Assembly (NCBI GenBank): GCA_944385995.1
Contig: CALWZL010000008.1
Coordinates: forward strand, 1-52,624
Source: an uncultured Faecalibacterium sp.
GTDB taxonomy: Bacteria > Bacillota > Clostridia > Oscillospirales > Ruminococcaceae
Direction: 5' to 3'
DNA length: 52,624 nt
The notes below the pieces were generated by a model that saw only the letters and a program-made list of their open reading frames with translations, had not been told where the DNA came from and searched no databases. This document shows positions 18,542 through 51,310 of this stretch, one piece after another (position 1 is the first letter of the stretch; every line of letters starts with the position of its first letter). A program made the position numbers and the translations under genes.

Positions 18542-18625
18542 TGCCGCCGACGGGGGTCGAACCCGTACTCTGTCTCCAGAAAGGGATTTTAAGTCCCTCG
18601 TGTCTGCCAATTTCACCACAGCGGC
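18542..18625 (-). tRNA. tRNA-Leu (anticodon UAA)
   Basis: An 84-base class II tRNA. Acceptor GCCGCTG pairs with CGGCGGC plus discriminator A; D-loop GGTGAAATTGGCAGACAC, anticodon loop CTTAAAA with TAA, a long variable arm and T-loop GGTTCGACC. CCA is not encoded: the next bases are TCG. Own promoter and terminator flank it. Confidence 0.95.
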
Positions 18626-20506: not shown

Positions 20507-22021
20507 TTAGCCGTTCATGATATTGGGGGTAGAGTTCTTGAGCAGAACGTCGTGGCTGCCGCCCTCCACAATGGAGGTGGAGGAAACCACCGTCAGCTTG
20601 GCCTTCTCCTGCAGCTCAGGGATGGAGAGGGCGCCGCAGTTGCACATGGTGCTCTTGACCTTATACAGGGTGGTCTGGACACCGTCAGCCAAGGGGCCGG
20701 CGTAGGGCACATAGCTGTCCACGCCTTCCTCAAAGGACAGCTTGGTGGCGCCGCCCAGGTCGTACCGCTGCCAGTTGCGGGCGCGGTTGGAACCCTCGCC
20801 CCAGTACTCCTTCATGTACTGGCCATTGATGCGGACGCGGTTGGAGGGGCTCTCGTCGAAGCGGGCGAAGTAGCGGCCCAGCATCACGAAATCCGCGCCC
20901 ATGGCCAGAGCCAGGGTGATGTGATAGTCGTGGACAATGCCGCCGTCCGAGCAGATGGGGACATAGATGCCGGTCTCCTTATAATATTCGTCGCGGGCCT
21001 TGGCAACCTCGATGACTGCGGTGGCCTGGCCGCGGCCAATGCCCTTGGTCTCGCGGGTGATGCAAATGGAACCGCCGCCGATGCCGATCTTGACGAAGTC
21101 CGCGCCAGCCTCAGCCAGGAAGCGGAAACCGTCCCGATCCACAACATTGCCGGCGCCCACCTTCACCTTGTCGCCGTAGTGCTCGCGAATCCAGCTCAGG
21201 GTGCGGCTCTGCCACTCCGAGAAGCCCTCGGAAGAGTCAATGCACAGAACATCGACGCCGGCCTCCACCAGAGCGGGAACACGCTCGGCATAGTCACGGG
21301 TGTTGATACCAGCGCCCACCACATAGCTCTTGCGGGAATCCAGCAGCTCGTTGGCGTTCTCCTTGTGGGAGTTGTAGTCCTTGCGGAACACAAAATACTT
21401 CAGATGACCCTCGGCATCCACCAGGGGCAGGGTGTTGATCTTGTTGTCCCAGATGATGTTGTTGCAGTCGTGGAGGGAAGTATTCTCGGGAGCGGTGACC
21501 AGCTTGCTCATGGGGGTCATGAAGGTGGTGACCGGTGCATCGTCAGGGGTATGGTTGATCCGGTAGTCACGAGAGGCCACAATGCCCAGCAGCTTGCCGT
21601 TGGCGGTGCCGTCATCGGTGATGGCGATGGTGGAGTGGCCGGTCTTGGCCTTCAACTCCAGCACGTCGTGGAGGGTTGCCTCAGGGGACAGGTTGGAATC
21701 AGATACCACATAGCCGGCCTTGTACATCTTGACGCGGCGAACCATTGCAGCTTCATCTTCGATGCTCTGGGAACCATAGATGAAGGAAACGCCGCCCTGG
21801 CGGGCCAGCGCAATGGCCAGCTTCTCACCCGACACAGACTGCATGATGGCACTGACCATCGGGATGTTCATTTCAAGCGGGCACTTCTCTTCTCCCTTGC
21901 GGTACTTCACCAGCGGGGTCTTCAGACTCACTGCGGTGGGCACATTCTCGGCTGATGAATAGCCGGGCACCAGCAGATATTCGCCGAAAGTACGGGAGGG
22001 TTCTTCATAAAAATATGCCAT
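20507..22021 (-). CDS. guaB: IMP dehydrogenase
   Basis: IMPDH oxidises IMP to XMP, the committed step of GMP synthesis. The 504-residue protein has the catalytic loop [12 protein letters not shown] with Cys320 and Thr322, two CBS domains at about 105-215 inserted in the barrel, SDGGI for phosphate binding, MLGRYFAR and the mobile flap with Arg-Tyr (NWQRYD). The N terminus ([18 protein letters not shown]) and the tail ([14 protein letters not shown]...CNCGALSI) differ from the B. subtilis type and match a divergent branch seen in some Clostridia. ATG at 22019-22021 has AAGGAGA upstream. Monocistronic, with promoter and terminator. Confidence 0.95.
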
Positions 22022-22104: not shown

Positions 22105-22133
22105 ACTATACCACATTTGCGGCTGGAATACAA
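22105..22133 (-). promoter_or_regulatory. guaB promoter
   Basis: On the minus strand TTGTAT (22128-22133), 17 bases ending TGTGG, TATAGT (22105-22110), about 75 bases before the start. Confidence 0.75.
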
Positions 22134-22257: not shown

Positions 22258-22292
22258 CAAAAAAGCCCGTCTCTTGCAAGACGGACTTTTTT
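22258..22292 (-). terminator. Terminator of the small-RNA candidate
   Basis: AGTCCGTC / GACGGGCT, an eight-base-pair stem with one G-T pair and eight-base loop, followed on minus by TTTTTTG and on plus by TTTTTT, so probably bidirectional. Confidence 0.85.
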
Positions 22293-22432
22293 GCACACGA
22301 AGTGAGGTATCGCCTGTGTGGCACAGCCAGACAGCTGAGAAGGAGAACAGCCGGAGGAGGAGTTGGCCGCGCCCGACACCTCAAAAGCAAGAAGAAAAAG
22401 ATTTCACAGTCGCCGTATTGGCTCTCTGCTGT
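22258..22432 (-). ncRNA. Candidate small RNA with C-rich anti-Shine-Dalgarno loops
   Basis: A unit of about 175 bases between a good promoter (22439-22467) and an intrinsic terminator (22258-22292), holding no ORF with a ribosome site. On the minus strand GAGGTGTCG can pair with CGATACCTC over nine pairs, closing a large hairpin. Inside lie CTCCTCCTCC (complement of 22353-22362) and TTCTCCTTCTC (complement of 22337-22347), each able to sit in a loop closed by GGCC/GGCT or GGCTG/CAGCT. Such C-rich loops pair with ribosome binding sites in Gram-positive small RNAs such as FsrA or RsaE. I do not see 6S, SRP, tmRNA, T-box or purine-riboswitch cores. It could instead be a leader with terminator far upstream of guaB, or a long thioesterase 3' UTR. 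Confidence 0.5.
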
Positions 22433-22438
22433 AACTGT

Positions 22439-22467
22439 ATTGTAACTCTTTTGTCTCCAATTTGCAA
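22439..22467 (-). promoter_or_regulatory. Promoter of the small-RNA candidate
   Basis: On the minus strand TTGCAA (22462-22467), exactly 17 bases, TACAAT (22439-22444), in an AT-rich patch after the thioesterase stop. No gene start follows for over 400 bases. Confidence 0.75.
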
Positions 22468-22521
22468 TACCTTTTTGTAACTTTTTTGTAATTTAATCAA
22501 AATTGCTTTCCAGCTGCTCTT

Positions 22522-23256
22522 TTAAAAGCGGCAGAACAGTTCAAACGCTGCTTTGCCTTCCCGACGGCCGGTTACATACCAGCCCGGGCCCTGTTCCCCC
22601 TCTGCCTGGCCGTAAAACAATTCCATTTCCTCTCCAAAGGGGACCTGGCGGTGGTATTTGATGACTGCATACTGCATGGGACCCTGCTCAATGACCTCCT
22701 GGGGCAGAGCGTCACAGACCACGTCCAGATAGGCGGCATTGTTGATGTGACGGTTGGTGTCGCAGATGGAATAGCCGGCACGCCGCACACCCGCCGGGAT
22801 CAGCTCCGGCGCTTTGGGGACTGTCTGCGACAGCTCCCAAGCCACCTCCTCATTCCAGTGGCCCTCCATATCTTCGGGGATATGCCGTATGATCTTGCTG
22901 GAGTCGGTATCCACCAGCGTCCAGCGGGTATCCACCCGGGCAATCTCTTCCCCGCTCCCATTGCAGACCACCATCACCCGCTTATTGGCGGCGCGGCGGC
23001 TCTGTTCCGGGTAGGTGGTCAGGGTCAGGGTGTCCCGCATGGCGGGCACCTTGTAGAACTGGAACGCCTGCCGGCCCACCAGGTAGACCATGTGCCGTGC
23101 GCTGTAAAAAGCCTTGTCCATGCCCAATTCCCAGGCATGGGCTGTGGCCAGATGCTCGGCACAGCGCAGCAGGGCCGAAGGCTTCATCAGGCCGCGAAAG
23201 TCCACATCCCCTTCGTCCAGGGTCATCTGTTCGGTGTAAAAGCTCCGGTATTCCAT
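22522..23256 (-). CDS. Acyl-ACP thioesterase
   Basis: A 244-residue FatA/FatB-type thioesterase with two hot-dog domains. It frees fatty acids from acyl carrier protein in the cytosol. The second half has the catalytic pattern SICDTNRHINNAAYLD, with the Asn-x-His motif (N, H and N two apart) of plant and bacterial acyl-ACP thioesterases; the first half has a MVYLVGRQAFQFYKVP strand. ATG at 23254-23256 has GGAG upstream. It begins 27 bases after potD on the same strand and is probably the last gene of the pot transcription unit, an unusual partner for polyamine transport. Confidence 0.9.
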   Translation of the reverse strand: MEYRSFYTEQMTLDEGDVDFRGLMKPSALLRCAEHLATAHAWELGMDKAFYSARHMVYLVGRQAFQFYKVPAMRDTLTLTTYPEQSRRAANKRVMVVCNGSGEEIARVDTRWTLVDTDSSKIIRHIPEDMEGHWNEEVAWELSQTVPKAPELIPAGVRRAGYSICDTNRHINNAAYLDVVCDALPQEVIEQGPMQYAVIKYHRQVPFGEEMELFYGQAEGEQGPGWYVTGRREGKAAFELFCRF

Positions 23257-23283: not shown

Positions 23284-24516
23284 TCAGTACATGTTCCGCA
23301 CCTTCCGGCGCATCTTGCGCCAGATATTGAAGCATGCCAGCACAACCATGGCCAGCAGCAACAGCAGGAACAAATACCCGCTGCCGCCCTCGTCATAGCT
23401 CTTCATCTCGCTCCACTTGACATCCAACTCACTGTTGACTTCCTCGCTCAGAGCCGTAAAGACCTGCTCTTTGGCGGCAATTTCTTCCGAGGGATAGGCG
23501 ATTTCGCTGTACTTCAGTTCATCGTCCAGCTGTTCCCAAACGGCAGTGCTGGGCGTGGTGTAACCAATATACTCGGCATTGGCAGTGCCTACGTCCACCT
23601 CACACATGAAGTTGATGAACATCTCTGCCGCTTCCTGGTTCTGACTGGTGGCAGGAATGCACATACAGTCCACCGACAGCACACTCCCCTCTTCCGGGAA
23701 GACCCAGGCCAGGTCGGGGTTGTCTCCAATCATGGTAATGGCATCGCCTGAATAGTATACGCCGATGGCCGCCTCGCCGCCGATCATCTTATCAAAAATT
23801 TCGTCCATCACGTAGGCCTGTACCAGAGGCTTTTGGGTCTTGAGCTGTTCCATCACCTCATCCACTTCGTCGGTGGTCGCAGGGTTGACGCTCTTTCCTT
23901 CCTTAAAGGCTGCGATGGCGTAGGCATCCCGGCTGTTGTTGAACATCAGAATGTTGCCGGCGTATTGCTCATCCCACAGGTCCGCCCAACTGGTGGGTGC
24001 CTGATCCACCATGGTGGTGTTGTAGATGATGCCGGTGGTACAGAGCATATAGGGAACTGTGTAGGCATTCTCGGGGTCATAGTCGGGGTTGCGGTACTGT
24101 TCATCGATCAGAGCAAAGTTGGGAATGTTGTCATAGTTGAGGGGCAGCAGCATCTCCTCATCAATCATCTTGGCTACCATATAGTCAGAAGGAATGATGA
24201 CATCATAGCTGGCTGCACCTGATTTCAGCTTGGCATACATCGACTCATTGGAATCAAAGGTGGTATAGTTCACATGGATGCCGGTCAGTTCTTCAAAGGC
24301 GGCCACCACATCCACGCTGCCATCCGAACCGCTGGAGATGTATTCGCCCCAGTTGTAGACATTCAGGGTGATGTTCTGGCCCGCAAACCGGGTCCAGTCA
24401 TAGTCTCCCGAGACGCTGATATCGTCGGTCACCTGGATGGGTTCCGCGGCCAGGGCGGTCCCGGTGCAGGCTGCCGCCAGCACCAGGGCAGACAGAAATG
24501 CAAACAGACGTTTCAT
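23284..24516 (-). CDS. potD: Spermidine/putrescine-binding protein with C-terminal membrane anchor
   Basis: A 410-residue PotD-like solute-binding protein. Residues 1-24 are a signal peptide (AxA-type end ALAA; a cysteine at 17 lies in only a partial lipobox). The mature part has NVYNWGEYI, the PSDYMVAKMI segment and Asp/Trp/Tyr residues expected to bind the polyamine. Residues about 379-397 form a transmembrane helix followed by a basic end (RKMRRKVRNMY), so the protein is tethered by its C terminus rather than by a lipid. ATG at 24514-24516 has GGGAGGGG upstream. Last of the four pot genes. Confidence 0.92.
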   Translation of the reverse strand: MKRLFAFLSALVLAAACTGTALAAEPIQVTDDISVSGDYDWTRFAGQNITLNVYNWGEYISSGSDGSVDVVAAFEELTGIHVNYTTFDSNESMYAKLKSGAASYDVIIPSDYMVAKMIDEEMLLPLNYDNIPNFALIDEQYRNPDYDPENAYTVPYMLCTTGIIYNTTMVDQAPTSWADLWDEQYAGNILMFNNSRDAYAIAAFKEGKSVNPATTDEVDEVMEQLKTQKPLVQAYVMDEIFDKMIGGEAAIGVYYSGDAITMIGDNPDLAWVFPEEGSVLSVDCMCIPATSQNQEAAEMFINFMCEVDVGTANAEYIGYTTPSTAVWEQLDDELKYSEIAYPSEEIAAKEQVFTALSEEVNSELDVKWSEMKSYDEGGSGYLFLLLLLAMVVLACFNIWRKMRRKVRNMY

Positions 24517-51227: not shown

Positions 51228-51310
51228 TGGTGCGGGAGAAGAGGGTCGAACTCTCACTCTTTCGGAACTGGTGCCTAAAACCAGCGCGTCTGCCATTCCG
51301 CCACTCCCGC
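51228..51310 (-). tRNA. tRNA-Leu (anticodon UAG), CCA encoded
   Basis: Acceptor GCGGGAG pairs with CTCCCGC, then discriminator A and an encoded CCA (51230-51228). D region TGGCGGAATGGCAGACGC, anticodon arm CTGGT-TTTAGGC-ACCAG, a variable arm and T-loop AGTTCGACCC. Unlike tRNA-Leu(UAA) at 18.6 kb it carries its CCA in the gene. Confidence 0.95.

Follow-up and report, generated by a model that had tools for sequence, protein, structure and literature searches.

IMPDH RNA (RF02994) of Faecalibacterium: a conserved small RNA gene often found beside guaB, its wider family and its proposed pairing with translation starts

Between a thioesterase gene and guaB, in a stretch of DNA of 52,624 nucleotides from an uncultured Faecalibacterium sp. 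(the window), lies an element with C-rich motifs that resemble anti-Shine-Dalgarno sequences. Is it a leader of guaB, the tail of the thioesterase operon, a small coding gene or an RNA gene in its own right, and if the last, what would it do? An earlier note, made from the letters alone, had called it an undescribed trans-acting regulator. The word "undescribed" has to go: in an Rfam search the window RNA matches RF02994, "IMPDH RNA", of type sRNA, with 104.2 bits against a gathering cut-off of 95.4, and a match to a known class was among the outcomes that the note itself had named as refuting. The likeness extends to sequence, structure and strand, and the alignment of Faecalibacterium copies reproduces a consensus structure with covariation. 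Besides tRNA, RF02994 alone reached gathering in the window; two tRNA-Leu genes lie on the minus strand at 18542-18625 (anticodon taa) and 51228-51310 (anticodon tag). As for 6S RNA, the window RNA has no RF00013 match, and the 6S match of this genome is elsewhere (C41:8889-9093). Reportedly, the likely source of the family is the 2017 work of Weinberg and colleagues. No function is stated in what was seen of the Rfam entry, and a literature search on IMPDH RNA or RF02994 returned no functional paper. Judged by its sequence, then, the element is a real, conserved, self-standing small RNA gene of a catalogued family; what appears to be new here is the wider family beyond Rfam's model, its minimal form and a start-codon antisense logic.

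The features of the locus are these:

22522..23256, minus strand: acyl-ACP thioesterase gene, the upstream neighbour (Pfam PF01643)
22476..22492, minus strand: upstream direct repeat ATTACA-N5-GTTACA, a possible regulator site (sequence, locus alignment)
22439..22467, minus strand: promoter-like site of the sRNA, -35 TTGCAA at 22467-22462, 17-base spacer, -10 TACAAT at 22444-22439 (promoter scan, conservation)
22258..22433, minus strand: predicted sRNA transcript of ~175 nt (fold; start inferred from the -10 element)
22388..22405, minus strand: conserved U-rich segment GAAATCTTTTTCTTCTTG, candidate 5' pairing segment (alignment)
22280..22387, minus strand: RF02994 IMPDH RNA domain (Rfam match, 104.2 bits)
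22374..22382, minus strand: 5' arm of closing helix P1 (fold, covariation)
22353..22362, minus strand: C-rich internal loop CTCCTCCTCC, predicted anti-Shine-Dalgarno (sequence, fold, conservation)
22337..22347, minus strand: apical loop of P3, TTCTCCTTCTC, predicted anti-Shine-Dalgarno (sequence, fold, conservation)
22304..22312, minus strand: 3' arm of closing helix P1 (fold, covariation)
22258..22293, minus strand: intrinsic terminator, a covarying stem and T-run (fold, covariation)
22105..22133, minus strand: promoter-like site of guaB, TTGTAT-17-TATAGT with TG before the -10, 3' of the sRNA terminator (by eye)
20507..22021, minus strand: guaB (IMP dehydrogenase), the downstream neighbour (Pfam PF00478)

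Much of what had been read from the letters is borne out on the minus strand. TTGCAA-17-TACAAT is followed by about 175 bases without a supported ORF, the ORF list giving only mechanical frames there, and both C-rich motifs and the nine-pair closing helix (GAGGTGTCG/CGATACCTC, 22382-22374 with 22312-22304) are where they were said to be. The terminator stem and T-run are also present, but the stem has 16 pairs in the fold and not eight. The sRNA promoter site is not significant by the scan alone, because one site of the TTGCAA-17-TACAAT type was found and 0.6 are expected in shuffles. The simple terminator scan did not call the sRNA terminator on the minus strand; it called the same hairpin on the plus strand instead, and another at 22244-22229 on the minus strand, so that the terminator rests on fold and alignment. 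The promoter-like site of guaB was not called by the promoter scan. Like C-rich sRNAs that target Shine-Dalgarno sequences, the element thus has, as far as letters can tell, its own promoter and intrinsic terminator, and predicted folds and conservation give it single-stranded C-rich segments.

The structure is supported by fold and alignment. The 181-nt minus strand folds better than its shuffles (z -3.94; 1 of 200 equally good) into a small 5' hairpin, the U-rich segment, a long rod with CTCCTCCTCC as internal loop and TTCTCCTTC as apical loop, and the 16-pair terminator. In alignment A1, which comprises 29 distinct Faecalibacterium transcripts (one identical row left out), 97.1% of the cells pair and 26 of 41 pairs show double-sided changes, against a shuffle mean of 15.2, with none of 500 shuffles reaching 26. 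Sliding the structure along A1 gave 4-11 double-change pairs, a control biased toward the structure because the latter was derived from the same alignment. Over the 34 pairs of P1-P2, P3 and the terminator (a 4-pair and a 3-pair helix were left out), G-U occupies 98 cells on the minus strand and A-C only 5, which identifies the minus strand as the functional RNA strand. We also considered a CACA/UGUG pseudoknot joining the P1-P2 bulge to the segment ahead of the terminator, but dropped it: by eye, GTGTAC variants as well as L006 and L031 break it.

RF02994 is a single-copy gene in 30 of 31 Faecalibacterium genomes, in 25 of the 31 above the cut-off, and the only genome without a match (G317) is 77% complete. 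The -10 TACAAT occurs in all 30 aligned Faecalibacterium loci, the -35 TTGCAA in 29, with TTGCTT in the remaining one. From 5' to 3' the alignment shows the conserved promoter with upstream repeats of the ATTACA-N5-GTTACA type, a variable 5' hairpin, the near-invariant GAAATCTTTTTCTTCTTG, the C-rich loops, a CACAGGC bulge, CTTCGTGTGCAAAA and the covarying terminator. Among 29 sequences, A2 to C12 and T14 of GAAATCTTTTTCTTCTTG are invariant, and few parts of the RNA vary less than the CU-rich single-stranded segments. Promoter and terminator are conserved although the neighbouring genes change. The expected conservation of promoter, loops and terminator is therefore upheld, with strong covariation over 29 distinct copies. 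In one genome (G316, L023:1474-1500) the U-rich 5' segment is partly duplicated, with nine extra bases, as if it were a functional, repeatable unit.

A model of our own, R1, built from the 29 Faecalibacterium copies with terminator, matches the window at 22405-22258 with 160.3 bits, the window's copy being part of R1. Rfam's model stays below gathering in two divergent Faecalibacterium loci (L006, L059), and under strict filters it matched 6 of 297 genomes in a family-wide sample, 5 of them Faecalibacterium. A match of that model in genus g51 (L007, E 9e-4) we took as chance; its sequence looks coding-like by eye. R1 did not find the RNA before guaB in one Faecalibacterium locus (L045). The window's guaB is 98% identical to that of Faecalibacterium strain An122.

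Could the conserved stretch be a small protein gene? Mechanical ORFs do overlap it. However, the alignment varies through compensatory base-pair changes and through differences in length rather than in a codon-like way, the invariant segments are pyrimidine runs, and inspection by eye turned up no start with a ribosome site in the transcript, which makes a coding role scarcely credible.

The name of the family points to IMPDH, and guaB lies at most 1.5 kb downstream in 28 of the 30 Faecalibacterium loci and in 9 of the 15 loci of other genera with examined neighbours, so that "upstream of guaB", as it had been put, describes a frequent arrangement but not a constant one. Both facts would suit a cis-acting guaB leader or attenuator, such as a purine sensor that controls guaB through its terminator. 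Nonetheless, guaB was not found within 1.5 kb in two Faecalibacterium loci (L027, L029; the genes that follow there resemble, by eye, YerC/TrpR and a pcrA helicase), nor in six of other genera (L160, L120, L133-L136), which include all four g26 loci checked. Where it is near, its distance from the RNA varies among Faecalibacterium loci, unlike the constant position in the 5' UTR that a leader or riboswitch would hold. A promoter-like site separates the sRNA terminator from guaB, and a similar one stands before guaB in Gemmiger and Fournierella loci. No alternative antiterminator fold caught our eye in unsystematic inspection. Given the RNA's own terminator, the separate promoter-like site and the genomes in which guaB is not adjacent, we do not take it for a guaB leader, a reading to which we assign a very low probability. 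Near guaB in two relatives there are a glmS ribozyme (L049:7362-7509, truncated where the locus ends) and a T-box leader (L059:6331-6539). Gemmiger loci without the sRNA (L046, L048, L050-L055) have a recurrent block like CAAAGTCATACTTTT...CACAACTTT between the upstream genes and guaB; from its sequence, this is possibly a control site of guaB.

The upstream side needs similar care. Neither inspection nor the scan found a terminator between the thioesterase stop and the sRNA promoter (22468-22522), so the thioesterase operon may run as far as the sRNA terminator, and the RNA could in principle be a stable 3'-UTR product, or just the terminator, of that operon with no regulatory role. Against this, the RNA has its own conserved promoter-like site, strongly conserved single-stranded segments and covariation, and it persists in the 4 of 30 Faecalibacterium loci where no thioesterase was found within 1.5 kb upstream; we consider such an origin very unlikely.

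The family is wider than its Rfam model. Homologues that share UCCUCC (mostly CUCCUCC), a terminator and a closely similar promoter occur in seven other genera (g9, g13, g21, g26, g48, g55 and g59), which makes eight with the window's own; g13 is less certain, resting on pattern and promoter. Their forms range from structured RNAs to unstructured ones of ~85 nt in Gemmiger. We inferred the names g55 (Gemmiger) and g59 (Fournierella) from stretches identical to those of loci with a genus name (L161/L058, L141/L069, L142/L072).

R1 gave a match, correctly placed and oriented, at 17 of the 80 guaB loci searched: 15 are from Faecalibacterium, where some genomes are surely already represented in R1, and 2 are from Fournierella (L069, 37.9 bits; L072, 42.4 bits). 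Among 396 genomes it matched 29, of which 7 are Faecalibacterium; among the others the sRNA was confirmed for L120 (50.5 bits) and L121 (44.1 bits) only, the weaker matches being often terminator-like. The short form came to light when guaB upstream regions were read: four Gemmiger-labelled loci (L058, L061, L063, L065) carry it behind a closely similar promoter. Of the 12 guaB loci that are Gemmiger-labelled or Gemmiger-like, 8 lack it by eye in the 520 bases read, and these eight carry the block described above. A pattern search followed by inspection added g26, g59, g21, further g9 and g55 loci, and g13. This pattern required CTTTTTCATGNGT and TCCTCC, so the invariance of both among the loci it found is by construction; support free of that selection comes from L069, L072, L120 and L121 (R1) and from the four Gemmiger loci that were read. 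The pattern matches 53 of 396 genomes, where short-gap matches are mostly the antisense of ordinary Shine-Dalgarno plus Met-Lys-Lys starts; its rows were inspected in part, and G012 holds a further candidate.

The 22 aligned loci outside Faecalibacterium have TTGACA-17-TACAAT. CAAAA-N2-GTTACAAT is common to the promoters, each base occurring in at least 90% of all 52 loci, but GTTACAAT belonged to the pattern by which those 22 were collected. Folded singly, the 17 structured, non-g55 homologues show by eye the order P1-P2, C-rich internal loop, P3 in 15 cases, but not in L260 (g13) or in L201, whose 3' end was cut too long. Their alignment has double changes in 15 of 27 predicted pairs, and 12 of the 17 carry CCCTCC in the terminator loop.

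For a reciprocal comparison we built two models without promoter or terminator, R3 from Faecalibacterium and R2 from the other genera. R3 finds 15 of the 17 structured homologues in the right place and strand (E 1.8e-5 to 6; L141 and L142 missed); over 47 sources its 17 matches are these 15, the Gemmiger-type L160 and the decoy L145, which at 13.4 bits has 14 homologues above it and L260 below. R2 finds 24 of the 29 Faecalibacterium copies (best E 4.3e-5); 17 of these score higher than the strongest Shine-Dalgarno-antisense decoy (16.7 bits), and the window's copy, at 16.0 bits (E 0.31), falls below it. Because these scores are moderate, homology across genera rests on promoter, gene neighbourhood, motifs and structural scores together. 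The Rfam model remains below gathering in all 8 other-genus loci tested, and its match in the window covers neither the promoter nor the 5' segment and takes in little of the terminator. In the order, a strict promoter-plus-seed pattern matched 2 of 384 genomes, which both belong to the same family; this is no proof of absence elsewhere because the pattern is strict and misses Faecalibacterium itself.

What, then, would such an RNA do? In our opinion the best explanation, to which we give a probability of about 60%, is a trans-acting sRNA that works without Hfq by pairing with the regions where translation starts. This part of the earlier proposal stands, novelty apart: a trans-acting anti-Shine-Dalgarno regulator is the best reading of an independent, non-coding RNA that runs from promoter to terminator and keeps CU-rich segments single-stranded. 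We infer that a sigma-A-type promoter belonging to the RNA itself drives its expression and that transcription stops at the RNA's own terminator. This transcript would consist of the 5' hairpin, the U-rich strand and the P1-P2-P3 rod, whose internal and apical loops would expose CUCCUCCUCC and UUCUCCUUC. These loops would pair with Shine-Dalgarno sequences of target mRNAs and the U-rich segment with the start of the target's coding region; both together would block ribosome loading and so repress the target, in trans and without Hfq. An Hfq-dependent sRNA presupposes Hfq in the genome, and PF17209 was found in none of the 31 Faecalibacterium genomes, the same search being positive in 5 of 14 controls.

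The relatives are the most instructive on this point. Those of other genera carry CUUUUUCAUGUGU, the complement of ACAC-AUG-AAA-AAG, and CUCCUCC, the complement of GGAGGAG, so that CUUUUUCAUGUGU...CUCCUCC is the reverse complement of a Shine-Dalgarno sequence followed by AUG-AAA-AAG. The whole Gemmiger RNA is a short 5' part, CACTTTTTCATGTGTTCTTCTCCTCCTTTC and the terminator, and CACTTTTTCATGTGTTCTTCTCCTCCTTTC is the reverse complement of GAAAGGAGGAGAAGAACACATGAAAAAGTG, a Shine-Dalgarno sequence and then ATG AAA AAG. Structured relatives keep both seed segments with part of the rod in between; Gemmiger retains the seeds but no rod. Faecalibacterium has TCTTTTTCTTCTTG as its 5' segment, the AUG complement being lost (the divergent L006 retains CTTTTTCATGAGTG), and carries a second C-rich loop in apical position.

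It might be objected that the C-rich loops are protein-binding sites, and that the RNA sequesters a protein in the manner of CsrB or 6S. Protein-titrating RNAs of this kind present repeated short motifs in loops, and the repeated loop motifs here do resemble them. But Gemmiger has lost the rod and yet keeps CUCCUCC and CUUUUUCAUGUG, and the motifs complement a Shine-Dalgarno sequence plus a start codon; titration therefore seems unlikely to us, though it deserves more weight than the alternatives above.

If the RNA pairs with mRNAs, which ones? Since the relatives carry CUUUUUCAUGUGU and CUCCUCC as antisense, the sequence suggests that targets lie among mRNAs for lipoproteins and ABC-transporter binding proteins, namely those starting with Met-Lys-Lys. 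Outside the sRNA, exact ACACATGAAAAAG occurs at 15 sites in 19 sRNA-bearing genomes, 10 of them lipoprotein starts by eye; 19 sRNA-less controls, hand-picked from other genera, have 6 sites, 4 at secreted or membrane proteins and none at an evident lipoprotein (by eye). As evidence for targets, this sequence contrast is weak. The 14-mer complement of the Faecalibacterium 5' segment falls mostly in recombinase and other coding interiors. It fits one ABC-permease start, which we rejected as a general target because the site fits in one genome alone (G314), the gene being matched in 17 of 31. Pairing energies indicate that the window's loops pair with any strong Shine-Dalgarno sequence. Nor does guaB appear to be a preferred target: its start region ranks 19th among 40 window ORFs by summed pairing energy, in a ranking without shuffled control whose ORFs were chosen mechanically, some surely in wrong frames. 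The start region of a solute-binding protein gene (23287-24516) ranks 4th of the 40 for pairing with the CU-rich segments. Across 30 loci, the loops showed nothing beyond Shine-Dalgarno pairing with guaB and thioesterase starts, some of the latter being placed roughly.

The promoter may hold a hint as to the signal. TTACA direct repeats with an 11-base period, which resemble response-regulator boxes, lie upstream of the sRNA promoter (22476-22492) and inside it (22430-22446). The pattern DTTACANNNNNDTTACA has 20 sites in 3 Faecalibacterium genomes, 6 of which are sRNA promoters, and 3 of the remaining 14 lie at Na/Pi-cotransporter genes; the reversed pattern, as a control, has 2 sites. Similar TTTACAT repeats occur near Na/Pi-cotransporter genes in G297 and G320 (L172, L178, L181). 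Phosphate control through Pho-box-like repeats is a lead, suggestive only. One may go further and imagine IMPDH RNA as one branch of a master sRNA of gut Oscillospirales (which we take to be the order of the genera sharing the family), repressing nutrient-uptake lipoproteins as a class through antisense to a generic start, GGAGG...AUG-AAA-AAG, in forms from the bare 85-nt RNA of Gemmiger to the two-loop RNA of Faecalibacterium, under one conserved promoter that is maybe under PhoP-like control. We offer this as a speculation, with perhaps one chance in a few of being right.

Faecalibacterium is among the commonest human gut bacteria, and a literature search on its small RNAs returned nothing on the subject by title. 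A single-copy, highly conserved and apparently Hfq-independent sRNA with visible pairing segments would offer a handle on post-transcriptional control in this genus. Structured and bare relatives under one promoter make the essential part testable, and an orphan family, RF02994, gains a testable function.

How does the RNA compare with known systems? GcvB of enterobacteria targets ABC-transporter binding proteins, the target class proposed here; it uses a GU-rich region and Hfq, whereas IMPDH RNA has CU-rich segments and no Hfq was found in its Faecalibacterium hosts. FsrA of Bacillus and RsaE/RoxS of Bacillus and Staphylococcus set a C-rich motif against the Shine-Dalgarno sequence, as IMPDH RNA is proposed to do. 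The P1-P2-P3 rod separates IMPDH RNA from both, and FsrA needs the FbpA-C chaperones. No family named IsrR, FsrA or RsaE was among the window's Rfam matches with E up to 10, a comparison by family name alone. The IsrR report describes an RNA with its own terminator, with C-rich regions in the loops of stem-loops and in one single-stranded stretch, conserved in its genus, whose C-rich regions were modelled against Shine-Dalgarno regions of mRNAs and act on start regions (PMC9410917). The iron/Fur link of IsrR has no counterpart seen for IMPDH RNA, but with its own terminator, loop-borne C-rich regions and genus-wide conservation IsrR is the nearest working parallel. By analogy, IMPDH RNA would be similar in its working to sRNAs of the IsrR, FsrA and RsaE type.
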